Source: a virus. Taken from it: DNA of 64,000 bases. The stretch covers positions 248,001-312,000 of the IMG/VR virus record IMGVR_UViG_3300021197_001489, one strand, 5' to 3'. A program made the position numbers and the translations under genes. Below, piece after piece: positions 1,632-61,500 of the stretch. The notes under the pieces were generated by a model, which saw nothing but the letters and a program-made list of their open reading frames with translations, searched no databases and had not been told where the DNA came from. The stretch's first letter is position 1; each line of letters starts with the position of its first letter.

Positions 1632-3752
1632 ATGGCAACTGGTACAATTACATCAATGATATTAACGGCTGGTGCTAGCATGATAGCCAACGGCAGTGAT
1701 GCTGATCTTGGTGGCAAACCTATTGCTTCAAACAGTGGTGCGCCATTGAGTGTAACTGACAGTGTTAACAGTGAAGTTGGAGCACCAACATTAAAAGTCA
1801 TGAATGACTCCACACTAGAGATACAAGCACTACAAAGTGTTCTGTACACAGTCACAGCCAAGATTACATCAAATCTCAGCACAGCACAAATCAATGAATT
1901 TAGCAGCATGGCAAGCGGATTAGGCGAAAATGTGTTCACTGCGCCATTTGATCTGTATTCAGGAAATGCCTATGCAATACTACACACTGCTGATACTATC
2001 GACAGTGTAATGACATTTGGTCGTACAGAAAGTGCTACTGTGTTAGGCGGTTCATCCACTGCAACAGAAATTGAAGGAGATGCCAAAAAGCTAGGCACAA
2101 TCTTTGGCAGCGCAGTGGCATTTGTTGAAACAAGCAATCAATTCATCAATGCTGCAAATAACAGCGCCAATCTATTTACGGGCGGTACGTTTCCTGGAAT
2201 GGACAGTGTTGTATCTGGATCACTCACAGGAGTTAGTTTAGCCAGCCAGCCACTGGGTGCAGATCTAACTGCACTAGGTGACATTATCAGTTGGCCAAAC
2301 ATTACCAATCTTGGATCCCCAGGGCAACTATTAAGCAACATGCTTGTCAATGGAACACTTGGGCCAATGTATGCTAAATTAAAAACACTGACAGTAAATT
2401 CTCGTATTGCTGCTGTGCTAGGTGCCGACACCAGCACTATTGCCAATTTAACCAATCCAACCCCGACACTTAACGAGCTGGGCATTGACCTAAATCGCGT
2501 AGCAGAAATTGGCGCAAACTTGCCGCGTAGTGTACAACAACAAATTTACAATCTCTTTGTCAGTCTCGATACCACTGAGCTTGCACAAGTAAAAAGCATA
2601 CTGAAATGTACACAAACATACATTGTTACTGGTGCCGACCTGTTTGATCTAACAAAACAATTTCCTACCAGTTACATGACACTTACTGCACCGTCAAGTG
2701 CAAGCGGTATTAGCAACCGTGCTATCTATATAAACACATCTGGCAGTGTAAATGGATTATTTGACAGTCTAGGTTCAAGGTTAGCAAATATACTGCCCAG
2801 TGACTTTGCTGTTGCAAATGGCGCATTGGCTAGGAGTTTTGGGCAAATCAAAAATGTTGAAAACACCAATCTTAATACTTTCTCGACTGCAACAAACGCA
2901 TCTGAAACCATGAAAGACTTGCCACTTATACAAAATTTAACAACCTACATGCCTACAGGTGTTGTAAAATATTGGACCGACTACTACGGATTAACCAGCA
3001 ACATTGACCTTGCCACAGGGCCAAAAGGCAACTTTACACTTGCTGATTGCATCGGATATGCAGCAGGATTTAACAGTGCATTACCACTGAAACAAAACGC
3101 TAGATTACTAGCACAAATGAACACTGCTGGAGAACTGGATGTATTCTACAATGATGCCGGCAGTAGCAGTGCCACCACTGGTGTATTAAAGGTAATAGAG
3201 TACTTGCTGGATGGTGCATACGATCCATCGCCACCAGCAGTGTCGCCTTATGTAATACCAGGCGGTGTATACGGGGCTGGCTCGTATGCAACATTAGCCC
3301 TTGCTTACACAGCCCTTATTACAGCAGCCAAAAATCTGATGCAAAGTCAGTGGACAGCAAACACAACCGCGCAGAGTGTGCAAGCAAACTTCCAACGTAT
3401 CCAAGATCAACAAGCACGAGAGAAATTGAATCGTGTGAAAATGGATTTAGTGCTTGCTGATGTTCAAAGCCAAGACAGCAATGCAACCAGTTTAGCTTCA
3501 AGCCTTGCCAGTTATGCTCTTGAAGCAACTGACGGCGGCCCTAGTGAGTTTCTCGAACGCATTGCAAATTTTGATACGCTTGGTGGACAAGCAATGATTG
3601 CAGCAATGCGTGAAGCTAGAAACATCAGTGTGCTCGGTGCCGCCAATATTGAACAAGATGGTATACTTGACACTGCTCCTCCTGCTAATCCAGGCAGTTT
3701 TTTAAGTTCACAGTACACAGCCGCAGGTGCAGAAGCAATTATTGTAAAGTAA
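1632..3752 (+). CDS. Large probable virion/baseplate-associated protein
   Basis: A 706-residue protein rich in Ala, Ser, Thr, Asn and Gly with no signal peptide and no enzymatic motif that I recognise. The N-terminus is a short hydrophobic Ala/Gly-rich stretch (residues 1-20), and residues ~550-640 are predicted helical (ALAYTALITAAKNLMQSQW and QARE-rich segment). Composition and its position directly behind the PAAR gene fit a structural protein of tail or baseplate. No homologous family can be named from sequence alone. An antisense ORF inside it is a codon-bias shadow. Confidence 0.8.
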   Translation: MATGTITSMILTAGASMIANGSDADLGGKPIASNSGAPLSVTDSVNSEVGAPTLKVMNDSTLEIQALQSVLYTVTAKITSNLSTAQINEFSSMASGLGENVFTAPFDLYSGNAYAILHTADTIDSVMTFGRTESATVLGGSSTATEIEGDAKKLGTIFGSAVAFVETSNQFINAANNSANLFTGGTFPGMDSVVSGSLTGVSLASQPLGADLTALGDIISWPNITNLGSPGQLLSNMLVNGTLGPMYAKLKTLTVNSRIAAVLGADTSTIANLTNPTPTLNELGIDLNRVAEIGANLPRSVQQQIYNLFVSLDTTELAQVKSILKCTQTYIVTGADLFDLTKQFPTSYMTLTAPSSASGISNRAIYINTSGSVNGLFDSLGSRLANILPSDFAVANGALARSFGQIKNVENTNLNTFSTATNASETMKDLPLIQNLTTYMPTGVVKYWTDYYGLTSNIDLATGPKGNFTLADCIGYAAGFNSALPLKQNARLLAQMNTAGELDVFYNDAGSSSATTGVLKVIEYLLDGAYDPSPPAVSPYVIPGGVYGAGSYATLALAYTALITAAKNLMQSQWTANTTAQSVQANFQRIQDQQAREKLNRVKMDLVLADVQSQDSNATSLASSLASYALEATDGGPSEFLERIANFDTLGGQAMIAAMREARNISVLGAANIEQDGILDTAPPANPGSFLSSQYTAAGAEAIIVK

Positions 3753-5980: not shown

Positions 5981-8227
5981 ATGTTCTTAGCTTTATTAAT
6001 ATTAATTGTAGCACTTAGCCTTTCAGGCATTGCTGCCTATTATAGTATAATTGGTTTGGCTGCAATCTTTGCGGCAGCAGTCATTCCAATTATAATTATG
6101 GGCGGCATACTGGAGATTGCTAAACTAACAGTGACAGTGTGGTTGCATCAACATTGGAACCGTGCAAAGTTTTTAATGAAAGCATACTTGGTGTCTGCTG
6201 TGGCTGTGCTGATGTTTATCACATCAATGGGAATCTTTGGGTTTCTCAGTAAAAGTCATATCGAACAAACTAGTGCAGGTACAGAACAAATTGTACAAGC
6301 AGAAGTAATTGAAAATAAGATTTTAAGAGCGCAAGCAAAGCAACAGCGTTGGACTGATGAAATCGCAAGACTGCAAGCCGGTGAGACTAGTGGCAGAGTT
6401 GATGCTTTAATTGCACGTGAGCGCGAGCGTATCAAGGATGCAAGAGCAAGTCTGGCACCGCAGATTGATGCAGAAAATGCAAAGGTTCCTGGACTTAGAA
6501 CACAAGCAGAAAAAGAAGTAGCGCAGCAGAACAAACGTTTGTCAGATGCACAGAGTCGCAGTGCTGAGGCTATAAAAGTTGCACAAGCAGAACTTGATAG
6601 ACTGGACGCAGATGTAAAAGCATACACCAGACAAGGGCAAGCAAAAACAGGCGCATTTGGCGGCACAACAGACATGGTTGCCAAAGGCAATGAATTACGC
6701 AAACAACAGCGACGCCAACGTGGTAAGCTACAAGGTGATATTGACAAAGCAAAAAGTGCAGAAGTTAGTGTTGCTAGTGCAGTACAACGTGAAATAACAA
6801 AGATTAACAATCGGCTTGCAGATCAAATAAAAGAAGTAGAAGCTCGTATTGCAGATATACGCAAAACTGTAGAGCCTACCATTGCAAGTGCAAATGAAAA
6901 TATTGCAAAGTATACTACACAAGCAGGCAGTTCAAACAAGGACATTGATGTACGCATTGATGAACTAGAGAATCAAATAGATGCATTACAGCCAACTATA
7001 GATACACTGCGTGAAGATAAGTTTGTGTATGAAAAACAATATAGACAGTTTGAAGCTGAAGTAGGACCGATTAAATACATTGCTGAACTTGTGTACGGTG
7101 CCGACCCTGATCAAAACTTGCTAGAAGAAGCAGTACGTTGGGTTATTATTTTAATTGTTGCAGTTTTTGATCCACTAGCAATCATGATGCTACTTGCTGC
7201 TACTGAAACGTTTGGCTGGCGCCGCAAAGACAAGGAGAGTATTGTTGATAACACGAAAACTGAGAGCGTATTGCCGCCTGCGCCGGTTGAGGAAGCACCG
7301 TCAGGCGACCAGCAAACAGAAGAATCACCAGATGCAGCAACTGACCAATCTGGACCAGAGATTGAAGAAACTGGAGAAGCAGATAGCGCAGATAATCAGA
7401 ACTCTGCGAGGGTAAAAGTACATGTCGAGCATATTGTATTACCTGCTGCAGAAGATACACCCTCTGAATCAATTATAAAAGTTCCAGACGAGCCACTCTT
7501 TCCAGAACACGGAACGCCTGAAGCAAAAGCCTTTAGCGATGATATTGTTGCAGCCGCAATGGCCAAACAGTTTGGTACCAAGGCTGACGAAACAAAGAAG
7601 ATTGAAGAAGAAGTTCAGGATCAAATAATCCTTGAATTTATGCAGCCAGCAGAGGAGCTAGACAATGCCAGCGCGGATTCAGAAGTCACTACAGCAGAGC
7701 AAGAAGAGATCACAGACCTGGGAGAACCCGGACAAACAGAACCCACAGTTGAGGAAGAAACAATTACAGATACTGAGCTTTTTGCTTGGAAAGACGAAGA
7801 TGAAGGCGATCCAGAAAAAAGAGCAAAGCGAATTTGGAAACGACTGAATCCTCAAAGCACACTTAAAGAAGAAGAATACAAATTTTCTCACAAAGTAATT
7901 CCTGAAGTTCCGTGGACTCAGTATATGCGAGCAGACGATTCCGACCTAGACCAGTACACCCGTGCTGACTTTGGAACAAGGTTCCCTACACGTCCGATCA
8001 AAGGTGATACGTTTGTCAGGGTTGATTTTTTGCCAAGTAAACTTTACAAATGGAACGGCAAAAAATGGATTGAAATTGACAAAGAAAACACTGATGCATT
8101 TACCTATAACGAAGAATATATAGCACACCTCATTGAGAAACTTGGTTCTGGTGAATATGACCCTGATCTTTTAAATGATGCAGAACGAGCCCAAATCGAA
8201 CAACAACTTAAAAACCAGGAGCTGTAA
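5981..8227 (+). CDS. Membrane protein with long coiled coil
   Basis: A 748-residue protein with two to three membrane segments in the first ~85 residues, a long Ala/Gln/Glu/Arg-rich coiled coil (residues ~95-345), another membrane segment near 383-405 ([19 protein letters not shown]), then an acidic Glu/Pro/Thr-rich linker (~420-620) and a compact C-terminal domain with aromatic residues ([14 protein letters not shown]). Proteins of this architecture occur in marine T4-like phages without known function; the layout suggests an inner-membrane-anchored scaffold. Its stop overlaps the clpX start (TAATG), so the two are coupled. An ATAAATA-like sequence lies just before the start but is probably too close to serve it. 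Confidence 0.85.
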
Positions 8228-34939: not shown

Positions 34940-35112
34940 TGAACGATTTAAAACCCTATGATTATGTAGTTGTTTCAGTGACTGCGTGGATGATAATGAA
35001 CCATGTAAAAGTCATACTGATGTACGGACAAAATGGCTTGTTGACTGGCGCAGTAGGTATTTGGTTGTTTTGGACTATATTTAATTTGTATTCTAATTGG
35101 AGGGCGCGATAG
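34936..35112 (+). CDS. Small membrane protein
   Basis: A 58-residue protein with two hydrophobic stretches (VVVSVTAWMIMNHVKVIL; LLTGAVGIWLFWTIFNLY). Start overlaps the preceding stop, and its stop overlaps the next GTG start. Function unknown. Confidence 0.6.
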   Translation: MMNDLKPYDYVVVSVTAWMIMNHVKVILMYGQNGLLTGAVGIWLFWTIFNLYSNWRAR

Positions 35113-35549
35113 TGTTTGATTTATTTAAAAAAAGCAAACCAGCAGGCTTGTACTTTGCCTACGGTGCTAACATGTGCAAACGCAGTATGAGGCACCGTTG
35201 CCCAAATGCTAAACCAGTAAAAGCATTTTATTTGATTGGTTGGCGCTTGATGTTTAGCAACCATGCTACCATTGTTCCTGCAGCTCATAGCGCAGTGCCT
35301 GGATGTTTGTGGAGCATTACAGAAGACTGTGAAAAATCACTGGATGGTTTTGAGGGCTTTCCAGGGTATTATAGCAAAATTTGGTTGACACAACACGGTG
35401 AATCATTTATGGTATATGAAATGAACCCGCCACTGAATCCCAAGTATACACCAGATAACAGTTATGTTAATCTATTACAAGAAGGCTACAACGACTGGGA
35501 TCTTGATCCACAGTACCTGGATGACGCATTATACTATGAGCTCGGATAA
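35112..35549 (+). CDS. Gamma-glutamylcyclotransferase/AIG2-like protein
   Basis: A 145-residue protein with the family's N-terminal YFAYGANMCKRSM loop and the catalytic acid region LDGFEGFPGYY. GGCT-like enzymes cleave gamma-glutamyl amines or peptides to 5-oxoproline. GTG at 35112 is chosen as start because TTGGAGG lies seven bases upstream and the codon overlaps the preceding TAG stop. Phage relatives are known; role in infection unknown, possibly glutathione or gamma-glutamyl metabolism. Confidence 0.82.
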   Translation: MFDLFKKSKPAGLYFAYGANMCKRSMRHRCPNAKPVKAFYLIGWRLMFSNHATIVPAAHSAVPGCLWSITEDCEKSLDGFEGFPGYYSKIWLTQHGESFMVYEMNPPLNPKYTPDNSYVNLLQEGYNDWDLDPQYLDDALYYELG

Positions 35550-37971: not shown

Positions 37972-38649
37972 TTAGAATTTAGTATCTTTTTCAACATGCG
38001 GCTTACTTCCATCAATCATTGTACCTATGTCGTTTCTACGTCTGTCAAGCCAACTGTTTTCTACATAGTGTACATACTTTGCATTTGGATCTTTGTTTAG
38101 TATGTAATGCAGTTTTTCATTGCTGTAGTCAACTGGAATATCAAGTACACTATCTAAACTTTTTACATATTGATGTCTAAACATGTAAAGCAATTCAACA
38201 CTTAGAAAAGTGTGCTTGTATTCCATTAAGTCATCAATCTTATTTAAGTAGTTGTGTAAACTTTCTACACCTCTTTTACGCAGTTGATTTTGTGCAGTAA
38301 TGTTTTGGTCTCTGCCAATAATACCAACTTGTAAGTTGCCTTTTTCATTTAACCTGCGCAATACTTCTGCATAGTCAGGATACTTTGTTTGCCTTACGCC
38401 ATTACTATGATCTTTATCAACATAAGGACCACTAACACTTAGCACATAGTTTTCATGCTCTGTCCAGTCATAGGCGTCAATGTGTTCAGGCGTGTTCCAA
38501 ATATCTTTGTATGGAGCATTATCATGGTTTACCCAGTACTCACGCAACAGTTGATCCCAGCCATGCACATTGCTGTGCATGGATAAGACTTTGCTGAACA
38601 CATGGTTACCAGTGCCTTGTGGGCCACTTATAACTAGTATGTTTGCCAT
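37972..38649 (-). CDS. P-loop sulfotransferase-like protein
   Basis: A 225-residue protein with an N-terminal glycine-rich loop (LVISGPQGTGNHVFSKVLSM) and a later basic segment (IIGRDQNITAQNQL) that could bind the 3'-phosphate of PAPS. Fold resembles phage sulfotransferase-like proteins rather than kinases. Starts in overlap with the tctC stop (TAATG). Substrate unknown. Confidence 0.65.
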   Translation of the reverse strand: MANILVISGPQGTGNHVFSKVLSMHSNVHGWDQLLREYWVNHDNAPYKDIWNTPEHIDAYDWTEHENYVLSVSGPYVDKDHSNGVRQTKYPDYAEVLRRLNEKGNLQVGIIGRDQNITAQNQLRKRGVESLHNYLNKIDDLMEYKHTFLSVELLYMFRHQYVKSLDSVLDIPVDYSNEKLHYILNKDPNAKYVHYVENSWLDRRRNDIGTMIDGSKPHVEKDTKF

Positions 38650-39707
38650 TATTTTACCAACTCTGGCTTGAAGATTGATTTAAGACCAAATGCTTCTGTG
38701 TTGAACTTTACCAGTGTTTGCAGTGCATCAGCAGTTACAAACTTCATCAGTGTGTTTACTTGTGCATTGCCTGCATCACCTAGCATCCACTCATAGTTGC
38801 CAACTTTCTTTTGAATCTTCTTGATTGACTCAGGATTGGTTGACACCTTTTCAAGTGCTGCCACAAGTTTTGCTCTATTAGGATTGCCTTTGTTTACCCA
38901 CAATGCTTTTTGTAATCCATCTCGGAAACTTTTTACCAGCTTGTATGCATCTGCTAGATCGCCTTTTGGGTCTGCTTTGTACAGGGCAGAAAATTGTGTT
39001 TCCATTTGAATGCCTGGATAGTTTGGATCATCTGCGTGGGTACCGTCTGGCTGTAGAATGCCATGATGGAACCATAAACGTGCTTCACCTTTGTCAATTA
39101 CTGGCTGTACATGCTTTTTGAATGAAGCAGGATTTTCACGAGTGCCATTGAGTTCGCCACGCTTGAATGCAAGACGTCTTTCGTTGCCCTTCATTCCTTT
39201 AATCCAGTTTACCTTTTCGTTGAAGCAACCAACGTATGCTTCTGTGCTAGGTAAATTACCACACTTTAGCAGTGTCATTGCGATACCTTCAGGAACTTTA
39301 CCGCCGCCTCCTGAGAAACTTGTTCTGTCAGCATTGGGATTATGATCGCCATGTACTGCTGTAATAATGTTAAGGTTCATTAGTCCAACTGAATCATAGT
39401 CAGCATAGTTGTAATCCACTGCTTCTTGTAAGAAACTTACACCGTTGCCGCCGTTGGATACCATAATAGTTTTGTCATCAAAACGCAGTTCATTGTGGAA
39501 CTTGTTAAAGCCTGGAATATCCCTTGCACCACGGATGTGCTTGAGAATAATTTTTTCATCCAAGTATTTTTCCATCTCAGTGGCCACAATCTGTGCCCAC
39601 TGACTTGTACCGCCGCCTGGCTTCTGTGGTACAATCATTGTGTAATCAGCAACTGCTGATGTTGTAAAACCTAGCATCAGTGCTAGTGATAATAAAAGTT
39701 TACGCAT
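38649..39707 (-). CDS. tctC: Tripartite tricarboxylate transporter, periplasmic binding protein
   Basis: A 352-residue TctC/BugT-type solute-binding protein. Signal peptide MRKLLLSLALMLGFTTSAVA precedes DYTMIVPQKPGGGTSQWAQI, the conserved 'P..PGGG.D' ligand loop, and the C-terminal ~60 residues have the family's helical repeats (FRDGLQKALWVNKGNPNRAK). In bacteria TctC binds citrate or other carboxylates in the periplasm and hands them to TctA/TctB. Start overlaps the tctA 3' end by eight bases with GGAAG upstream. An organic-acid binding protein is unusual for a phage. Confidence 0.85.
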   Translation of the reverse strand: MRKLLLSLALMLGFTTSAVADYTMIVPQKPGGGTSQWAQIVATEMEKYLDEKIILKHIRGARDIPGFNKFHNELRFDDKTIMVSNGGNGVSFLQEAVDYNYADYDSVGLMNLNIITAVHGDHNPNADRTSFSGGGGKVPEGIAMTLLKCGNLPSTEAYVGCFNEKVNWIKGMKGNERRLAFKRGELNGTRENPASFKKHVQPVIDKGEARLWFHHGILQPDGTHADDPNYPGIQMETQFSALYKADPKGDLADAYKLVKSFRDGLQKALWVNKGNPNRAKLVAALEKVSTNPESIKKIQKKVGNYEWMLGDAGNAQVNTLMKFVTADALQTLVKFNTEAFGLKSIFKPELVK

Positions 39708-41139
39708 AATCTATTCTTCCTTTTCTCATAATGCTGTATACAAATATTCCAATAATACACACAATTAGTGACATGAATATTGGACGTGTGATTAATGTTT
39801 CCACAGTGTAAAGTCCTGTGATCTGAAATGTTAATCCTTCAACTTTTTCTGCCAGTATGTAACCGATTAACATAGCAGGTCTGCTAAACTTGTAGTGTCG
39901 CATTGTAAATCCTATTACAGAAAATACTGCTAACATTGCAAGGTCTTCCCAACCGCCTGTGTACTGCATTGAAGTAAAAATAATCAATCCTAGTAGCACA
40001 GGAAAATAATATTTGTATGGAACTGCGGCCAGTTTACTAATTGGCTTGATTAAAACCATACAAATCAGTGCAACTACAACTGTGGCACCTAAAAAGCCAA
40101 ATGTCATACTTGCAAATAATTCTGTGTCTTCTGCAATATCTGGCGTGCCCAGTTCGATGCCCAAGTACATAAACAGGCTCATCAATATAGCTGCAAACTT
40201 TGCACCTGGTATGCCAAATATAACTGTGGTAATCATTGATGTTGCCTTTTGTGCATTGTTAGCACCCTCAGGTCCTATCACACCCTTGATGTTGCCATTG
40301 CCAAACTTTTCTTTGGGATTACTGGCAACTGCTTGTCCATACGCCATCCAGTCTGCCATTTGCCCACCTAGTCCAGGCAACAAGCCAATGAACGCACCTA
40401 TAAAGCCACCGCGCAAAGCAAGCCATCTGTTCTCCCAACTTGCTTTCATGCCTGCCCATAGCTCACCATCGCGTATTTCACTGTCAGCAGTGCTGTGCTT
40501 TAAAAACAGCCCTCGTGTTAGTTCAGGAACAGCAAACAGTCCTGCGGCAACTGCCATTATCTGTATACCATCTTCTAAGTAGAACCAATATTGTGCGCCG
40601 AATCTGGCTGCATTATTATCTGGGTTGACACCTACCATGCCTACAAAGATTCCAAAAGCAATAGCAAGGATGGTGCGGAACCAAAACTGGTTGGTTAAAA
40701 ATCCCACAGTGACAAATGCCATTAAAACAAAAGCCCACAGTTCAGGCACACCCAGTATATAGATTAAATTGGTATACCATGGCAACAATAAAAATACCAA
40801 ACACCCCCAAAGCAAACCGTTTACAGTTGATGTTGTTACTGCGGCACTGATAGCATAGCCTGCTCTGCCACGTTGGGCTAGTGGAAAGCCATCAACCATG
40901 GTAGCGGCTGCACTGTTAGCACCGGGTATGCCTAGCAGTATTGCAGTGAAACTGTCACCTGTTGTGCTTGCAGCAACTACTGCCATAAGGAATATTACTC
41001 CCATATATGGCTCGTGTGCAAAGTAGCTAATAAATCCAAACAGTGCAACCAAACCTGTTGTTGCCCCTGCACTGGGAATAATGCCTATAATTAGGCCATA
41101 AAATACTCCGCCGAGCAGATATGTAATCATCTCGATCAT
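39700..41139 (-). CDS. tctA: Tripartite tricarboxylate transporter, large membrane subunit
   Basis: A 479-residue TctA-type permease with about ten to twelve membrane helices. Two repeated Gly/Pro signatures typical of TctA are present: LLGIPGANSAAATMVDGFPL with GRAGYAI (~res 67-95) and VIGPEGANNAQKATSMITTV with FGIPGAKFAA (~res 288-320), plus GLLPGLGGQMADWMAYG. It would carry the carboxylate across the inner membrane. The small subunit TctB is not encoded nearby, so the host TctB, or none, must serve. Slightly shorter than bacterial TctA (~500). Confidence 0.9.
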   Translation of the reverse strand: MIEMITYLLGGVFYGLIIGIIPSAGATTGLVALFGFISYFAHEPYMGVIFLMAVVAASTTGDSFTAILLGIPGANSAAATMVDGFPLAQRGRAGYAISAAVTTSTVNGLLWGCLVFLLLPWYTNLIYILGVPELWAFVLMAFVTVGFLTNQFWFRTILAIAFGIFVGMVGVNPDNNAARFGAQYWFYLEDGIQIMAVAAGLFAVPELTRGLFLKHSTADSEIRDGELWAGMKASWENRWLALRGGFIGAFIGLLPGLGGQMADWMAYGQAVASNPKEKFGNGNIKGVIGPEGANNAQKATSMITTVIFGIPGAKFAAILMSLFMYLGIELGTPDIAEDTELFASMTFGFLGATVVVALICMVLIKPISKLAAVPYKYYFPVLLGLIIFTSMQYTGGWEDLAMLAVFSVIGFTMRHYKFSRPAMLIGYILAEKVEGLTFQITGLYTVETLITRPIFMSLIVCIIGIFVYSIMRKGRIDYA

Positions 41140-41186
41140 ACCGAATCCACCGCCAAAAAGCAGTGCCTTTAAAAAGTTAGGGGGTA

Positions 41187-41225
41187 TTACAAGCGAACTC
41201 TTTTACATTCAGGCGTTGCTTGTAA
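41187..41225. other. Inverted repeat upstream of tctA
   Basis: TTACAAGC (41187-41194) and GCTTGTAA (41218-41225), an 8-bp perfect inverted repeat with a 23-base spacer, in the only sizeable gap (97 bases) of the minus-strand operon. It could be an mRNA hairpin that sets tctA expression or an operator; no T-run follows on the minus strand. Confidence 0.5.
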
Positions 41226-41235
41226 GTGTATGCTT

Positions 41236-41916
41236 TTACTTAGTACGCCAAACAAAGTACAGTCGATTTTTATGACTGTCAGTTCTAATATCCAGTATGT
41301 CGACGCCAAGTTGATCGGCACAGTTTACAATAAAGTTAGCGTCCCAAGGATAAAAACTAATCCATGTTGACTCATCTCTATCATGTGGCAAACCTGGATT
41401 AGCACGGAAAAATATTACTGCGCCTGGATTGCATAAACTTACTGCATGTTCAAGTTCAGCAAATATTTTTGAAGTTGATCCAAAGTTGATTGAACCCAAT
41501 GCCATCATTGCGTCATACTTTTCACCTGGATGGTAGTCTAACAACTTAACACAAATATCAGCTGAATCGTTATATGGATCAATGCCAATGAGATTGTGTA
41601 TTTTTCCTTTAAACTCGTGATATCCGCAACCAATGTCTAGCACCTTACGTGGCCTTAGTTGGTTTACTTCGTCAATCAATGCAGGTCCTGAATATTTAAA
41701 TCTTTTAATATGTCCTTGCCATACATTGCGAAAGTAATTGTCCAAGACTAGATCATCAATCTTGTCTACTAATTCACCAATGTTGGTATAACTTACGTCT
41801 TCAACGTCTACATTGAATGTACCACGAATTGCTTGCCGTAGCGTTTCTGGCTTGCGCAGTAGCTTGGGTGAAACATGTATCATGTTTTCCAGTTTATTGA
41901 GTATTTTGTGATTCAT
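41236..41916 (-). CDS. SAM-dependent methyltransferase-like protein
   Basis: A 226-residue protein with motif I RKVLDIGCGYHEF (~res 88-100), acidic strand end LIGIDPYND and motif IV-like YDAMMALGSINFG. N-terminal ~80 residues are helical. Methylates an unknown, probably sugar or lipid, substrate. It overlaps the SGNH gene upstream by 23 bases. Confidence 0.82.
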   Translation of the reverse strand: MNHKILNKLENMIHVSPKLLRKPETLRQAIRGTFNVDVEDVSYTNIGELVDKIDDLVLDNYFRNVWQGHIKRFKYSGPALIDEVNQLRPRKVLDIGCGYHEFKGKIHNLIGIDPYNDSADICVKLLDYHPGEKYDAMMALGSINFGSTSKIFAELEHAVSLCNPGAVIFFRANPGLPHDRDESTWISFYPWDANFIVNCADQLGVDILDIRTDSHKNRLYFVWRTK

Positions 41917-45725: not shown

Positions 45726-45746
45726 TCTACTTTAGACTGCATTTGG

Positions 45747-45775
45747 GAAAGCCACCTTCGGGTGGCTTTCTTTTT
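45747..45775 (+). terminator. Strong rho-independent terminator
   Basis: GAAAGCCACC, UUCG tetraloop, GGTGGCTTTC, then TTTTT. It ends the regulator transcript, 13 bases before the radical SAM start. Confidence 0.95.
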
Positions 45776-45787
45776 ATAAGTAGTAGT

Positions 45788-47674
45788 ATGAAGAACGTAT
45801 ATCTGGCACAAATGAGCTTGGAATTGCCAGGATCGAACTATTATTATTTTCCATACAGTATTGGAGTGGTTTGGGCATACGCAACTACACAACCTGATAT
45901 AAATGAAAACTATCAATTGTGTAATATTTTTAGCGTAAAAGAGCCAATCGACCGTTTAATGGAAAAAATTGTTGATCCAGGAATACTTGGACTTTCAAGT
46001 TATACATGGAACACCATGTACAACGAGGAACTTGCACGACGTGTCAAAGAAAAGTATCCTGAATGCACAGTGATAATTGGTGGGCCAAATACGCCTAACA
46101 ACAGCGAAGGGTATTTTGAAACCCGCCCTTATGTAGATTTTATAACACATCAAGAAGGCGAGGGGTCATTTACTGGATTACTTCGGCATCTTGTGGGCAA
46201 GCAGGAACTGATGGAAATTGCTGGGATCAGCATCAATAACAACGGCAAAACTGTAATGACCGGGCCAAGTCAACGTGTGGCTCTCGACGATGTACCATCC
46301 CCATATCTCATGGGCCTGTTTGACAACATCAAAACTGAACACCCGAACTTGATATTTAATGGTGTGCTCGAGACCAATAGAGGATGTCCGTTTATGTGTA
46401 CATTCTGTGACTGGGGCGGCACAACATTTTCAAAACTAAAACGTTTTGGCATGCAACGCATAGCTGACGAAATTGACTGGATGGGTCGCAACAAGATTGA
46501 AATGGTTGTAAACAGTGATGCCAACTTTGGTATACTCAAAGAACGCGATGTACTCATTGCAGATATGTTGATTGAGACCAAACAAAAGTACGGCTTTCCT
46601 GTACTGTTTGATACAAACTGGAGCAAGAACGCAACAACACAACTAGTCGACATTGCTGTCAAACTTATGGAAGCGCAGATGATGAGACGCTTTACCATGG
46701 CATTGCAAAGCACTAACCAAGACGTCTTAAAGAATATTAAACGTGTAAATCTCAAAGAAGAAGCAATGACTCGTGTTGCAGAAACTGCCTTTAGCAATGG
46801 CATGAGCGTTAACACCGAATTAATTATTGGCCTGCCTGGTGAAACATGGGAGTCATGGACTTCTGGTTTGTGTCATCTATTAAGTAGGGATATTATTGTT
46901 GAAGCGTATCCTGTGACTATATTGATGAACAGTGAAATGGGCCAGGATGACTATATTGACAAACATGGTATCACATCAACAACACTAAAAAGTTTTTTCT
47001 CTAAGTATGTTGATGAATGGCAAATCATGCTTACTGGAACAAACACATTGCCCGAAGCACAGATGAAAAAATTATGGTTATGGACTTGGCTTACATCAAT
47101 GATGGATGCAAATGGATATACACAGGTTGTATCGCGCTATCTCAACAAACGTCACGGCGTGCCATTTGAAAAGTTCTACGAGCGGCTGCTGGACTATGGA
47201 CTTGAAACACCCGATAGTGCGTTTCATCCTTGGTTGCACAAGTGGCAAGACTATGCTGAACAACTGGAGTTCAACATGTTTCTAGCCGGACTAACTTATT
47301 CACCTGTGATGCAAGACCTTGGACTGCACAAACGACAGCAAACCTATCAGGACATTTACGCTGTAGCACAGGAATTTGCTCCGCAAGATACACTGTTGCA
47401 GGATGTTATGATAGCGCAAGAGAGGCAACAAACCATATTCAATCACGAAGAAACAACCAAAATTACACTGAACGCCAATGTGTTTGAATACTCGTTGGGC
47501 AAAGAAGAATTAGATATTGCGCCAACAAGCTATGTATTCCACAGGGCATATCCGCCAAAAGGCACAAATCCTAGCTGGGTTGAGTGGTATAACAGTACTA
47601 GAAAAAACAAAAAGTGGCAGGCTAGGGTAGAAAAAATCACAAAAAAAGCAACTCTTTTTCACGAAAACGGTTGA
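45788..47674 (+). CDS. B12-binding-domain radical SAM enzyme
   Basis: A 628-residue protein. Residues ~1-170 form a cobalamin-binding-like Rossmann domain (LGLSSYTW, VIIGGPNTPNN, VDFITHQEGEG), followed by the radical SAM core with the cluster motif CPFMCTFCDWGG (~res 201). The rest (~450-628) is helical. Such enzymes methylate or rearrange unactivated carbons using SAM and, usually, B12. No ribosome site is visible; the terminator T-run ends 12 bases upstream and TATAAGTA, close to the late box, lies at 45775-45782, so a leaderless late transcript is possible. Needs a reducing partner; the phage ferredoxin at 50712 could supply it. Confidence 0.88.
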   Translation: MKNVYLAQMSLELPGSNYYYFPYSIGVVWAYATTQPDINENYQLCNIFSVKEPIDRLMEKIVDPGILGLSSYTWNTMYNEELARRVKEKYPECTVIIGGPNTPNNSEGYFETRPYVDFITHQEGEGSFTGLLRHLVGKQELMEIAGISINNNGKTVMTGPSQRVALDDVPSPYLMGLFDNIKTEHPNLIFNGVLETNRGCPFMCTFCDWGGTTFSKLKRFGMQRIADEIDWMGRNKIEMVVNSDANFGILKERDVLIADMLIETKQKYGFPVLFDTNWSKNATTQLVDIAVKLMEAQMMRRFTMALQSTNQDVLKNIKRVNLKEEAMTRVAETAFSNGMSVNTELIIGLPGETWESWTSGLCHLLSRDIIVEAYPVTILMNSEMGQDDYIDKHGITSTTLKSFFSKYVDEWQIMLTGTNTLPEAQMKKLWLWTWLTSMMDANGYTQVVSRYLNKRHGVPFEKFYERLLDYGLETPDSAFHPWLHKWQDYAEQLEFNMFLAGLTYSPVMQDLGLHKRQQTYQDIYAVAQEFAPQDTLLQDVMIAQERQQTIFNHEETTKITLNANVFEYSLGKEELDIAPTSYVFHRAYPPKGTNPSWVEWYNSTRKNKKWQARVEKITKKATLFHENG

Positions 47675-55478: not shown

Positions 55479-55940
55479 ATGGCACAACAAATAATCGACT
55501 TAGGAACTTCGGCAAACGCAGGCGACGGTGATAATCTTCGCAGTGCAATGGATAAAACCAACGATAACTTCACTGAAGTTTACACTGCTGGTCCAGTTGG
55601 TTCAAACATTTCAATCACAAACAACTCAATTTCAAGCACCAACACAAATGGCAACATTACACTAGCCACAGATGGCACTGGTGTTATTCAAGTTGCTAAC
55701 GATATTGTACCTGATGTTAACAACACACGCTGGATTGGTAGTGCTAATGTACGTCCATTAGGAGCATACATCGGAACTGCTGGAGTAATAAGTTCAGGAC
55801 CATTGACTCTTCCTACATTTGCAGACAATACCGCAAGAGATGCTGCAATTACGCAACCAGCCGCGGGTATGATAATCTTTAATACAACAGGCACAAAGTT
55901 CCAAGGATACACAGGCAGTGCTTGGGTTGACTTAAACTAG
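55479..55940 (+). CDS. Fibre-like virion protein
   Basis: A 153-residue protein. The first ~40 residues (QQIIDLGTSANAGDGDNLRS then AMDKTNDNFTEVY) are a shared attachment module, also present at the start of the proteins at 56436 and, more weakly, 62466. The rest is beta-rich with fibre repeats and a C-terminal end (FNTTGTKFQGYTGSAWVDLN) typical of tail-fibre tips. Behind a late box. Confidence 0.8.
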   Translation: MAQQIIDLGTSANAGDGDNLRSAMDKTNDNFTEVYTAGPVGSNISITNNSISSTNTNGNITLATDGTGVIQVANDIVPDVNNTRWIGSANVRPLGAYIGTAGVISSGPLTLPTFADNTARDAAITQPAAGMIIFNTTGTKFQGYTGSAWVDLN

Positions 55941-55953
55941 TAAAGGATAAGCA

Positions 55954-56382
55954 ATGGGATTCATAAAAGATACAGACGGTATTGCCAGATCACGTAAAGC
56001 AGATAAAGACATTACCTATAGATATGCCGATGCAGATGTAAACACATTTTTAGGTGGCGGTACTGCAGGTAGTATTGTTACAGCTGGAGGAATCACTGGT
56101 GGCATACAAACCATAAGTGGTCCAGGTGCAATCAACCTCACAACATTATACACTGAACTTACAACAACTGGTGCAGATGCATTCTCACTTGCAAATGGTG
56201 CCGCAGGGCAGATTAAAATAATCACCTTGCTTGTAGACGGCGGTAACGCAACAATCACTCCAACTACATTTTCAAACGGCACATCAATCACAATGGACGC
56301 CGCAAATGATTCAGTTACAATGATCTATGGTACCAACGGTTGGCAGATAATTGCCGCACAAGCAATAACTGTTAATGCATAA
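55954..56382 (+). CDS. Small virion protein
   Basis: A 142-residue protein (MGFIKDTDGIARSRKADKDI start). The C-terminal ~60 residues (GQIKIITLLVDGGNATITPT; MIYGTNGWQIIA) match the end of the protein at 62466 (GQVKVLAMLGDGG; MYINSKWFCIG), so the two share a structural domain. Probably part of a fibre or its tip. Confidence 0.75.
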   Translation: MGFIKDTDGIARSRKADKDITYRYADADVNTFLGGGTAGSIVTAGGITGGIQTISGPGAINLTTLYTELTTTGADAFSLANGAAGQIKIITLLVDGGNATITPTTFSNGTSITMDAANDSVTMIYGTNGWQIIAAQAITVNA

Positions 56383-56400
56383 ACTTTAGTTTACAATTGC

Positions 56401-56409
56401 CATAAATAC
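56401..56409 (+). promoter_or_regulatory. T4-type late promoter box
   Basis: CATAAATAC, 27 bases before the long fibre gene at 56436; identical to the box at 55448. Confidence 0.65.
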
Positions 56410-56435
56410 TCATAACAGCAAGTTAGAGGTTCAGT

Positions 56436-58586
56436 ATGGCAAGACAAGTAATTAATGTAGGCGCAACCGCAAATGACGGCACCGGAGACGGTCTCCGTAC
56501 TGCCTATATCAAGTGTAACGATAACTTTCAAGAACTGTATCAAACCTCAACAACTCCTATACAGATTGTCAACGGCACTTCAAACGTAGCAGTTACTGAA
56601 AATGCCAATGTCACGGTATCAATTGCTGGCAGTGCCAATGTTGTAAACTTTGCTGGCAGCATAACAGAATTTACCGGTAATGCTTCTATCAGTGGCGACC
56701 TGTCTATTGGTAACAGTGTAACTGTTACACAGGACGTTACAATAAGTGATCAACTTATTATTGTAGGCACCCTGGGCAGCAATATGATTCCTGACGGTAA
56801 CGGCACTAGAGACTTAGGGTCAAATGCAGCAAAATGGAAGGACCTATATCTAAGCGGTACCAGTACCGTCCTTGGAAATATAACGTCATCAGCAAACATA
56901 GCTGGTGCTAATATTATTGCATCACAAGATGTTATAATTGCCGGGCAACATGTCACAACTGGAAATGTAACAGCTGGGAACATAATCACTGCTGGTGTTG
57001 TCACTGCAACAGGTAATGTCACCGGTGGAAACTTGGTTACAGGCGGTTCTGTAGCAGCAACTGGAGATATTAGCGGCGCAGCTATTACAGCAACAGGCAA
57101 CTTTAGTGCATTAAATATTACTGCAACAGGCAGTGCAAACATAACTGCTGGCGGCTTTTTTGTAGGTGATGGTGGATTTTTATCCAACGTCACTGCCGCG
57201 TCAAACGTTGCAGTAACTCAAATTGCCAACGGAACATCAGTTGTAGGCATAAGTTCATCAGGTGGTAACGTTGAACTTACATCAGGTGGTGTATTAACAT
57301 TCCAATCAAACGGCACAAACTTAGACGTACTTCGACCACTCACAGTAACTGGTAACGTAACTGCTACTGGAAACACAAGCGGCGGTAACTTAATTACAGC
57401 TGGTAGAGTTGTTAGTACAGGAAACATAGTATCAAGTGGTAATATCAGTGCTGTAAACTTCTTAGGTAACGGTAGTTTCTTAACGGGCGTTGCATCAACT
57501 GCTATAACAAACGGCACATCAAATGTCACAGTTGCAAGTGGCGCTGCTACAACAGTTGGAGTTGCTGGCACTACTAGGCTTACTGTAAGTGCAACTGGCG
57601 CCGCTGTAGCAGGACTAATAACTGCAACTGGCAATATTACTGCTACAGGTAATGTAGCAGGCGGAAACGTAGTAACTGGTGGTTTAATAACTGCAACAGG
57701 CAATATCACTGCTACAGGTAATGTAGCAGGTGGAAACCTAGTAACTGGTGGTGCAGTAATTGCTACCGGGGCAGTAACTGGTGCAACACTTGCCGGTGAC
57801 GGATCAGCATTAACTGCACTAAATGGAACCAATATAGCAAGTGGTACAGTTGCAGCCGCTAGAGTGGCAACACTCAACCAAAATACAACTGGTAGTGCAG
57901 CCACACTCACAACCGCAAGAGCAATTGCACTAACAGGTGACGTAACTGGTACTGCCGACTTTGATGGTAGTGCAGGCATTAGTATTGCGGCTACTATTGC
58001 AGCTAACTCAGTTGCACTTGGCACAGACACAACAGGTAATTATGTTGCTACAGGTGCAGTTAGCGGTGTTGGTCTTAGTGGTAGTTCAAGTAGTGAAGGT
58101 GGTACATTTACTGTAACATCAAATGCTACAAATCTTAACACAGCCTCAACTATTGTTGCAAGAGATGCCTCAGGTAACTTTGTTGCTGGCACAATAACTG
58201 CACTTGCAACTTCAGCACAATATGCTGACATTGCAGAGATGTATAGCAGTGATCACCCACACGAACCCGGCACAGTGCTAGAGTTTGGCGGTGCAGCAGA
58301 AGTAACCCGTAGCAGTCAAGACGCTTCGCCAAGAGTAGCAGGAGTAGTGAGTACCAAGCCAGCACACTTGATGAACAACGAACAAGATGGTGTTGCAGTT
58401 GCATTGGTAGGGCGCGTACCAACACATGTTGTTGGTCCTGTGCGCAAAGGTGACATGATGGTTGCCACAGCAAATGGCAGAGCAAGAGCCGAGGCTAATC
58501 CAGCAATGGGAACTGTGATTGGCAAAGCACTGGAAAATTTTGATGATGCTCAAGGGACAATTGAAGTAGTAGTAGGAAGGTTCTAA
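56436..58586 (+). CDS. Long tail-fibre-like protein with repeats
   Basis: A 716-residue protein. N-terminal attachment module (RQVINVGATANDGTGDGLRT then AYIKCNDNFQELYQ) shared with the protein at 55479. A long shaft (~res 90-520) of beta repeats of the form TGN-x-TATGN-x-GGN-LVTGG. The C-terminal ~130 residues (YADIAEMYSSDHPHEPGTVL; VAGVVSTKPAHLMN; GRVPTHVVGPVRKGDMMVA; IGKALENFDDAQG) match the conserved C-terminal head of marine myovirus fibres, of the Peptidase G2 self-cleaving chaperone type. Probably the receptor-contact fibre. Confidence 0.82.
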   Translation: MARQVINVGATANDGTGDGLRTAYIKCNDNFQELYQTSTTPIQIVNGTSNVAVTENANVTVSIAGSANVVNFAGSITEFTGNASISGDLSIGNSVTVTQDVTISDQLIIVGTLGSNMIPDGNGTRDLGSNAAKWKDLYLSGTSTVLGNITSSANIAGANIIASQDVIIAGQHVTTGNVTAGNIITAGVVTATGNVTGGNLVTGGSVAATGDISGAAITATGNFSALNITATGSANITAGGFFVGDGGFLSNVTAASNVAVTQIANGTSVVGISSSGGNVELTSGGVLTFQSNGTNLDVLRPLTVTGNVTATGNTSGGNLITAGRVVSTGNIVSSGNISAVNFLGNGSFLTGVASTAITNGTSNVTVASGAATTVGVAGTTRLTVSATGAAVAGLITATGNITATGNVAGGNVVTGGLITATGNITATGNVAGGNLVTGGAVIATGAVTGATLAGDGSALTALNGTNIASGTVAAARVATLNQNTTGSAATLTTARAIALTGDVTGTADFDGSAGISIAATIAANSVALGTDTTGNYVATGAVSGVGLSGSSSSEGGTFTVTSNATNLNTASTIVARDASGNFVAGTITALATSAQYADIAEMYSSDHPHEPGTVLEFGGAAEVTRSSQDASPRVAGVVSTKPAHLMNNEQDGVAVALVGRVPTHVVGPVRKGDMMVATANGRARAEANPAMGTVIGKALENFDDAQGTIEVVVGRF
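57615..57752 (+). repeat. Two 69-nt tandem repeats in the fibre shaft
   Basis: 57615-57683 and 57684-57752 encode 23 residues each (ITATGNITATGN-VAGG-N(V/L)VTGG). They are nearly identical at the DNA level, a recent duplication; fibre length may vary by slippage here. Confidence 0.85.
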
Positions 58587-61500
58587 ATGGCACAACCAGT
58601 TTGGGTAACACCTGCAGGAGACCTCGGAACTATTGCCGAAAGTTTGTTCTTCCAAGTACCAATTGAAGCAACTGACTCAGATGGCTCAACAGTAAAGTAC
58701 AGTTTGATAGCTGGCAAACTTCCTGAAGGTATTCAAGTAACAGAAAACGGTAGCATTGAAGGTGTACCGCTGGCATATGCTAGAGTCAAGGGTGTACCAA
58801 CTGAAGTTTCTGAAAACGTAACATCAACATTTGCAGTCCGAGCTACTAGTACAGTTGATAGTCAAATTAACGACAGAACATTTGAGTTAACTGTTACTGG
58901 TCAAGATATTCCAACATTTACTACACCAGCTGGGTCGCTAGGCACATTTTTTGACAGTGATATAATTAATATTACAATTGGGTTTACTGATCAAGATCCT
59001 AACGATACTGTGGTAATCACAGTTGACAACGGAGAATTACCACCCGGATTAACTATCAATCCTACAACTGGTGTGATATCAGGATATATAGTGCCAGTAA
59101 GCAATTTGCCTGATGATGCTACTTCAGGATTTGATGCTAGTGAATGGGATTTGTATCCGTTTGATTTTTCTACTCGCAGTATAAACAAAACCTATGAATT
59201 TACACTGAGCATTACAGATGGTAAAGATCAAAATTTAAGAACGTTTTCAATGTATGTGGGCAGTCGCGACAGTTTAACCGCAGACACCACAGACTTTACA
59301 GCAGACAGTGAAGTGTTGACAGCAGATCTGTCGCCACAGCGTACTCCACTTATTACAAATTTCCCAGCAGCGGATCCACCATATGCAGCAGGATTTATTG
59401 GCCTGTTTAGACATGACAATTTCTTTGCATACCAAATTCTAGGATTGGATCTTGATGGAGACGCATTTGAATTTGAAATTGCATTAGGAGATTCAAGTGA
59501 CATTCCCCCTGGATTGGTATTTGATAGATTCACAGGTTGGCTAACTGGCTTCTTCCCAGATCAAGGTGCAACAGAAAAAGACTACAGTTTTGCTATCACC
59601 ATTTACAAAAAAGACAACAACGCAGTTGTAAGCGAACCTTATAACTATACGATGTCGGTTATAGGCAGTATTGAAAGTTCAGTTACTTGGCTGACCGGCA
59701 CATTGATTCCAGACAGAGATGTGAATGATCCAATATACAGTCTTGGCACAATAGACAACGGCGAAACCAGCATGCTGGCTGTTAAAGCAACCAATCCAAG
59801 TGGGCGTTTTTTACAATTTAAACTAAAAGCTGGCAGCTATCCAAGCACACCAGGGCAGTACAACTTGCTACCACAAGGGTTGCAACTTTTGGCTAGCGGT
59901 GAAATTGCCGGACGTGTAAGTTTTAATACCTTTGCAATTGATGGAGGAACAACCACATTTGACAAAAATACCACAACAAGGCTTGAGAACGCTGAAACCA
60001 CATTTGATAAAGCCTTTGACTTCACTGTGGTTGCATATAGCAGTGATGGCCTGGTCAGTGTAAGCAGAAAGTTCCGTATCACAGTTGACAGAGCATACAA
60101 CTCACCATATAATGGATTATATATCAAAGCCATGCCGGATCAAGCAGATAGAAATTTTGTAAACAGCCTTTTACAAGACACAGATATCATTCCTCCTAGT
60201 CGTGTATATCGTCCTGATGATCCCTATTTTGGTGTGGCTAAAGATGTGGTATACAATCATGCATACAGTTTAGACACTGCTACACTTGACGAATACTTAC
60301 TTGCATTAAGCAAAAACCATTTTCGCAAAAAGATTATTCTTGGACCTATTAAAACAGCACAAGCACTCAATCCCGACGGGTCTGTTGAATACGAAGTTGT
60401 TTACAGCGACATTGTTGACACAGGAGTGAATAGTTTAGGACAAAGTCCAGCACAAAGTATCACACTTCCTTATCCTGCAACAGTGTACAGCGAAACAGCC
60501 ACTGAAGCACGACAATTGTTTGAAGACAACTTCACCAACGGCAACGTTGCAGATGCAAATGTAACTGCACTGGATCAAATGAGTGTTGCTTACTTGGAAG
60601 AGTCAAGAGACCTAAACATGTTGGCAAACATTGCAAGTCAGATGGCAAAAGATTGGATAGCTGATGGACAACCTGGAGACCCTGCTCCAATATGGACTGG
60701 CGATAAGTATATTCCAAATCCCAAAGTAAACGATGTGTTCAACTGGACTCCCAGTAACCAATGTCCTGTAAACATGGAAGAGCCGCTTAGATATGACAAA
60801 TTTAAAACACAGTTAGCAGCTCTAACAGCCAATGACATAATATGGTGTGATTACACAGTTGAAGTGGATGATAAAGCTGATCCTGAAGGTAAGAAGAAGA
60901 AAACTGTTCGCAGTATTGCTCCTTTTGGATGGCTAATCGAATACGGTGATACTGCGTACATTGTGATGCGTGGTACACAAAATGAATATGATGGCAAGAT
61001 CGACACCATGGCAGCCAAAGTTATCAATCCAATTGCTGGATTTGGCAAAGGCAAAACACACAACGGATTTACTATTGCTTACAAAGGGCTTGGTCCAAAA
61101 GGCGAAGAGCGTCCTGCAGATGTCCCAGGTATCAGTTTGTTTGATGCACTAAACAACACCACTAAAACAAAAATCAAAATTGGCGGACACAGCCTTGGCA
61201 GTGCAATCAGCACACTTATAACCAATTATGCACAAACTTTTAACAAGTTTGACCGCATTGAAGGATATGTAAGCGCATCACCAACAGTGGGCAATCAAAA
61301 ATACGCCGACTATTTCAATGCTCTTCAAGACAAAGACGGCAACATGCTGGGCAACACTTTCTACAGACTCACAAACAAAAATGATATTGTGCCAATGATA
61401 CCTGGATCATGGTTACAATATATAGCAGTAGCACAAGAAGTGTTATTTGATGCTCCTTACACTGATCCTGATAACCTTGTAAAAACTGCAAAAAATCATC

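Follow-up and report, generated by a model that had tools for sequence, protein, structure and literature searches.

The window, a 64,000-nt stretch of DNA corresponding to positions 248001-312000 of a 316,012-bp IMG/VR record (contig G000), encodes a TctA permease (tctA1) and a periplasmic solute-binding protein (tctC1) that probably form a virus-encoded two-protein importer of the TTT class, secondary and binding-protein-dependent. What is new is a second, divergent TctA with its own binding protein and without TctB in the same virus, together with a covarying leader RNA. A broader reading is tentative, at a little under an even chance: large environmental phages would hold a two-component, TctB-independent TTT class, put together on two or more occasions (TctA1 and TctA2) with strongly differing binding proteins; some genomes would carry both types, and one lineage would have the system under a previously undescribed cis-acting leader RNA.

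In the proposed mechanism, the infected cell would produce TctA and TctC from a single message with coupled translation. TctC would be secreted into the periplasm of a Gram-negative host, capture a small carboxylate there and hand it over to TctA, which would import it with ions and without a virus-encoded TctB. The benefit might be the feeding of replication, or a precursor for the phage's own small-molecule or glycan-type gene cluster. We infer that the pair works without TctB, in which direction it transports, that its substrate is a carboxylate, and how the phage benefits.

Table 1. Positions of the transporter genes, the leader and adjoining features (window coordinates, except where contig G000 is named)
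Feature	Position	Strand	Length	Basis and remarks
Downstream gene	37972..38649	(-)	225 aa	P-loop/sulfotransferase-like by eye; no Pfam match; context only
tctC1, periplasmic solute-binding protein	38649..39707	(-)	352 aa	Profile comparison and predicted fold
Overlap ATGCGTAA, tctA stop/tctC start	39700..39707	(-)	8 nt	Sequence
tctA1, TctA permease	39700..41139	(-)	479 aa	Pfam PF01970, E=2.7e-91
Structured 5' leader of tctA1	41137..41236	(-)		11-bp helix 1 and second hairpin
Upstream methyltransferase-like gene	41236..41916	(-)	226 aa	Weak Methyltransf_23, E=6e-4; context only
tctA2	G000 55496-56830 (outside window)		444 aa	TctA, E=1.7e-70
TctA2-linked signal-peptide protein	G000 56913-57812		299 aa	Right after tctA2
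PP-loop SGGxDS protein	G000 57843-59021			Motif by eye; after the 299-aa protein

Permease and binding protein

The PF01970 match of tctA1 scores 306.8 bits (cut-off 28.9) and spans profile positions 2-422 of 423. The mark of the TTT family is a glycine motif duplicated in TM1 and TM7 (PMC5812351). By sequence and alignment, tctA1 carries G11-x3-G15-x3-G19-x2-P22-S-A-G25 in TM1 and G244-x3-G248-x3-G252-x2-P255-G-x-G258 in TM7; the TM7 copy is an exact G-x3-G-x3-G-x2-P-G-x-G, while in the TM1 copy P-S-A-G replaces P-G-x-G. The protein further contains GIPGANSAAAT and GIPGAKFAAIL. A complete-looking TctA with both signature repeats, as the preliminary description had it, is thus what the window encodes. 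It is not a TctA-TctB fusion: in the alignment its C-terminus falls where the TctB domain begins in fused relatives.

Pfam is silent on tctC1, so the name TctC needed proof from profiles and structure: relaxing the threshold to E<=1 still brings up no Pfam family, TctC itself included, and NCBIfam, PHROGs and a single-sequence search give no useful assignment. Aligned by hhalign with 11 bacterial TctC proteins, tctC1 reaches 99.7% probability (E=1e-25), and a profile search of the PDB places BugD on top (E=0.0026). Its AlphaFold (AF2) model has a pLDDT of 88, reached once 60%-identical relatives were added to the close homologues, which alone gave 59.5. The 16 best PDB matches of the model are all TctC/Bug proteins, and the best fold matches are MatC, Bpro_3516 TctC, BugD, terephthalate-binding proteins (TphC) and Bug27. 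Of the earlier claim of a signal-peptide-bearing TctC, the TctC identity is borne out by profile and fold; the N-terminus (MRKLLLSLALMLGFTTSAVADY) is signal-peptide-like as judged by eye. A TRAP transporter (DctP/DctQM), which pairs a DctP (PF03480) or TAXI binding protein with a DctM permease, was rejected: the permease belongs to PF01970, and tctC1 has no family match, PF03480 included.

Viral origin and gene neighbourhood

The 316-kb contig encodes a T4-type large terminase, whose best named relatives are those of jumbo myophages (Pseudomonas phage PA5oct, Sinorhizobium phage Phosso and Agrobacterium phage Atu_ph07), as well as tail and endonuclease genes. The source is a very large environmental virus of bacteria, probably marine. 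TTT genes are common in bacteria, which might point to mis-binned host DNA or a chimeric contig, but the phage genes on the same contig speak against this, and the presence of TctA1 on hundreds of independent viral contigs leads to its rejection; its probability is negligible. A scan with the TctA alignment finds at least 434 viral contigs matching TctA1, and one with TctC finds 176. The phage marker genes and this recurrence together uphold the original view that the pair is phage-encoded. In the INPHARED phages TctC has no match, and for TctA they give just 23-28% identity, to cellular-type TTT genes.

Across relatives, the methyltransferase-like gene is a common upstream neighbour of tctA1, and the 225-aa gene comes after tctC in most close relatives. 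The "glycan operon" first assigned to this region holds only in part: the genes form an operon-like block in which the neighbours are FkbM and other methyltransferases and SGNH-like, kinase-like and nucleotidyltransferase-like proteins. Such a block is consistent with a transporter that supplies a carboxylate building block to the surrounding biosynthetic or modification cluster of the phage rather than serving general nutrition, as are the PP-loop SGGxDS and sometimes asparagine-synthase-like proteins beside TctA2 modules. This supply role is possible yet doubtful, because the exact neighbours vary by contig and no complete pathway is recognisable.

Several other genes of the contig may be recorded here. 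Window 45743-47674 (+) encodes a B12-binding radical SAM protein whose match to the KedN5-like methyltransferase group stays under the NCBIfam cut-off; the bacterial contig with a TctA-TctC pair described below likewise has a B12-radical SAM gene. A gamma-glutamyl cyclotransferase-like (GGACT) gene lies at window 35097-35549 (+); this product class releases 5-oxoproline. Positions 29-985 of contig G000 encode a 318-aa membrane protein that by eye resembles PiT phosphate transporters and has no Pfam match.

Pairing and selection

The overlap of tctA and tctC is exactly 8 nt, as first reported, and probably reflects translational coupling. The identical overlap occurs in 50 of 63 non-identical viral loci with both genes; the remaining 13 have a 4-nt overlap (4 loci), a gap of 12-57 nt (6) or a gap of 717-1582 nt (3). 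The two genes stay adjacent while flanking genes shuffle between contigs. For the pairs that allowed a dN/dS estimate, values lie at 0.034-0.113 in TctA and at 0.069-0.111 in TctC, and both genes are under strong purifying selection. The kept overlap, the constant adjacency and the low dN/dS mark a selected two-gene module. As metabolic genes on a genuine phage genome under purifying selection, tctA and tctC are candidate auxiliary metabolic genes.

A phage-made secreted protein might also act in the envelope without any transport, for example by masking a receptor against superinfection. For that purpose a linked 479-aa permease would be superfluous; here conservation of the permease equals or exceeds that of the binding protein, and the duplicated TTT motifs are still present, which makes an envelope role highly improbable.

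Absence of TctB

Searches with PF07331 (TctB) gave no match in the 316,012-bp contig; 22 viral records of relatives (E<=1) and 19 further ones, among them contigs of 328 kb and 317 kb, were likewise negative. In E. coli, Corynebacterium glutamicum and Haloferax volcanii the same profile picks up TctB above its cut-off. When the entire contig was scanned by hydropathy, no 4-TM gene of TctB size emerged; six annotated TctB proteins, scored as a control with the threshold relaxed a little, gave 3-5 TM segments. The missing TctB of the preliminary description is therefore confirmed, and extended beyond the window, by profile and TM searches for the whole contig, a linear record that may be less than the complete genome. 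Most viral records are fragments, so each lone absence is weak; the recurrence of the absence is strong.

The phage might instead replace TctB with an unrelated small membrane protein. Among 213 viral loci just one such neighbour recurs, a 117-aa protein with 3-4 predicted TM segments, apparently two similar halves, and no Pfam or PHROG assignment. It directly follows tctC in L085 (7046-7399) and L086, lies nearby in L101 (7779-8132), L253 (4698-5051), L270 (5756-6109) and L271, and could possibly stand in for TctB in those relatives. Replacement as a general explanation is nevertheless improbable, since the protein has no homologue on the window's contig or at nearly all other loci, and since the one multi-TM protein of 149 aa that this genome encodes near TctA2 (G000 60273-60722), by size the best TctB candidate, was rejected as MotA/TolQ/ExbB-like.

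Cellular relatives

The canonical TTT systems TctCBA of Salmonella and BctCBA of Bordetella share with the phage pair a TctA with duplicated glycine motifs and an adjoining Venus-flytrap TctC. The phage pair differs in having no TctB, in the gene order A-C instead of C-B-A, in its phage encoding, in the 8-nt overlap and in a TctC that Pfam does not see. Archaeal stand-alone TctA (arCOG04469) is, like that of the phage, apparently without TctB; the archaeal proteins mostly lack TctC, whereas the phage keeps its binding protein.

Among named bacteria, both phage proteins have their nearest relatives on alphaproteobacterial and Paraburkholderia plasmids, as fused TctAB with TctC (Rhodobacterales, Thalassospira and Paraburkholderia plasmids; Sagittula WP_040604922/WP_005861842 and relatives). 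Compared with these fused systems, identity is 33-36% for TctA and ~27% for TctC (over 90% of its length, E=2e-15). TctA and TctB form one polypeptide of 647-691 aa in these bacteria, with the TctB domain at the C-terminus of the permease; the phage TctA is 473-482 aa long and finishes immediately ahead of the TctB position.

A much closer pair occurs in a metagenome-assembled genome (MAG) of Candidatus Omnitrophota (WJMG01000074.1), where TctA is 57% and TctC 48% identical to the phage proteins and the A-C order is the same. This cellular contig has methyltransferase genes and a B12-radical SAM gene flanking the pair, the latter adjoining it, and the MAG contains no TctB match. The contig also encodes NifU, HD-domain, Na/Ca-exchanger and methyltransferase genes; given these ordinary bacterial genes, a TctB-less TctA-TctC pair exists in a cell too. 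In the GTDB scan this one MAG is the only candidate for a close bacterial donor, and the pair was not found in 383 other searched genomes of the phylum.

In a tree of TctA1, the phage proteins and the one MAG protein form a clade (98/98), and canonical free-TctB systems form another (96/100). The phylogeny, which had been proposed for TctA and TctC as a check on host contamination, thus places TctA1 in a viral clade with a single bacterial MAG and not among host genes. The tree gives fused TctAB no resolved place relative to the two clades, and it does not separate loss of TctB from a fusion from later gain of the fusion.

These relatives bear on whether a TctB made by the host is recruited, forming a hybrid three-subunit transporter that would redirect host uptake. 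TctB is a normal partner of TctA in bacteria, and marine alphaproteobacterial plasmids are rich in TTT systems. TctA1, however, is only about 33-36% identical to the nearest bacterial TctA proteins; these carry TctB fused, which leaves no free TctB to borrow; and the cellular pair in the MAG has no TctB match of any kind. Recruitment is accordingly regarded as unlikely. Against TctB-free function, in turn, stands the essential role of the analogous small subunit in TRAP transporters (PMC5812351). As the nearest named bacterial relatives keep TctB fused, its loss in the phage could also mean reliance on something else.

The second system: TctA2

The contig carries a second permease, TctA2, only 24% identical to TctA1. 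The tctA2 pair (G000 55496-57812, equivalent to L038 15496-17812) has no TctB. The TctA2 type comprises 31 viral loci on about 30 contigs, with diverse binding proteins; the loci were recovered with a three-sequence alignment, single-sequence scans having retrieved only themselves. In nearly all of 25 inspected loci a 260-330-aa signal-peptide protein adjoins or nearly adjoins TctA2 (L189 is without one), and none of the 25 has a TctB-like gene beside TctA2. A profile of 16 TctA2-linked proteins matches TTT binding proteins in the PDB (25hk, E=5e-7; TphC, E=8e-7), and the comparison with bacterial TctC gives 97% and E=4e-11. A divergent TctA2 with its own binding protein and without TctB is an independent second case in support of a two-protein importer.

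One TctA of each type is present in G000, G005, G012, G407 and G409, and two TctA2 genes occur in G422. Two TctA2 genes in tandem (2020-3351 and 6051-7460) are seen on one viral contig, L190. The PP-loop SGGxDS protein, recognised by eye, is usually beside TctA2 modules, and an asparagine-synthase-like protein sometimes is. Homologues of the 5-oxoprolinase subunits PxpB and PxpC follow the TctA2 pair at one locus, in contig G005 (L147 3591-7358, IMGVR_UViG_3300021962_006679), which fits the expectation for organic-acid uptake and use. Judged from its genes, the G005 locus, and that case only, might serve viral uptake and use of pyroglutamate.

Other transporter-related genes lie near TctA2 in two further loci. 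L198 7142-8083 encodes a DctP (TRAP) binding-protein domain (E=5e-52) with a start that shows no obvious signal peptide, and L199 8515-9798 an MFS/Sugar_tr transporter.

Prior knowledge and significance

An earlier sighting of tctA on a viral contig dates from 2014 (eLife, PMC4164917), as a domain hit, and is repeated in PMC6359870. In the PMC4164917 passage, this marine viral TctA domain on a SUP05 viral contig is listed as an auxiliary metabolic gene with no role assigned; it is a single hit, and the passage mentions no TctC partner, conservation or absence of TctB. Archaea are known to have TctB-less TctA as well (PMC5812351, PMC5898192). These earlier sightings limit the novelty first claimed for the system. 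No description of a viral TctA-TctC pair was found in the open-access literature, a body that omits most subscription papers.

What TctB does is an old point of dispute: reviews are split on whether it is accessory or essential, and the protein has resisted purification (PMC5812351, PMC13390454). A natural family with permease and binding protein but no TctB offers a direct test. Its recurrence across hundreds of viral fragments points to a genuine uptake system that viruses have kept for a long time. Such a family suggests that large environmental viruses may reprogramme the uptake of infected cells via diverse binding proteins, a theme not mentioned in the jumbo-phage literature searched.

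Leader RNA of tctA1

A T4-type late promoter (TATAAATA) does not occur near tctA above chance. Upstream of tctA1 lies a candidate cis-regulatory RNA with no Rfam family. In helix 1 of this leader, 94% of cells are paired over 14 sequences, and 7 of the 11 pairs show changes in both partners; its covariation score is 0.41, against at most 0.11 when the partner is shifted by 1-3 columns. In the 56 sources searched with covariance model R1, strong matches lie exclusively directly upstream of tctA1 (two weak matches, E 0.3 and 0.9, were left out of the count). The leader is confined to one sub-lineage, that of the window, and is missing where tctA comes after other genes. The 3' strand of the second hairpin extends to a Shine-Dalgarno-like GGUGG, an arrangement that suggests translational control of tctA1.
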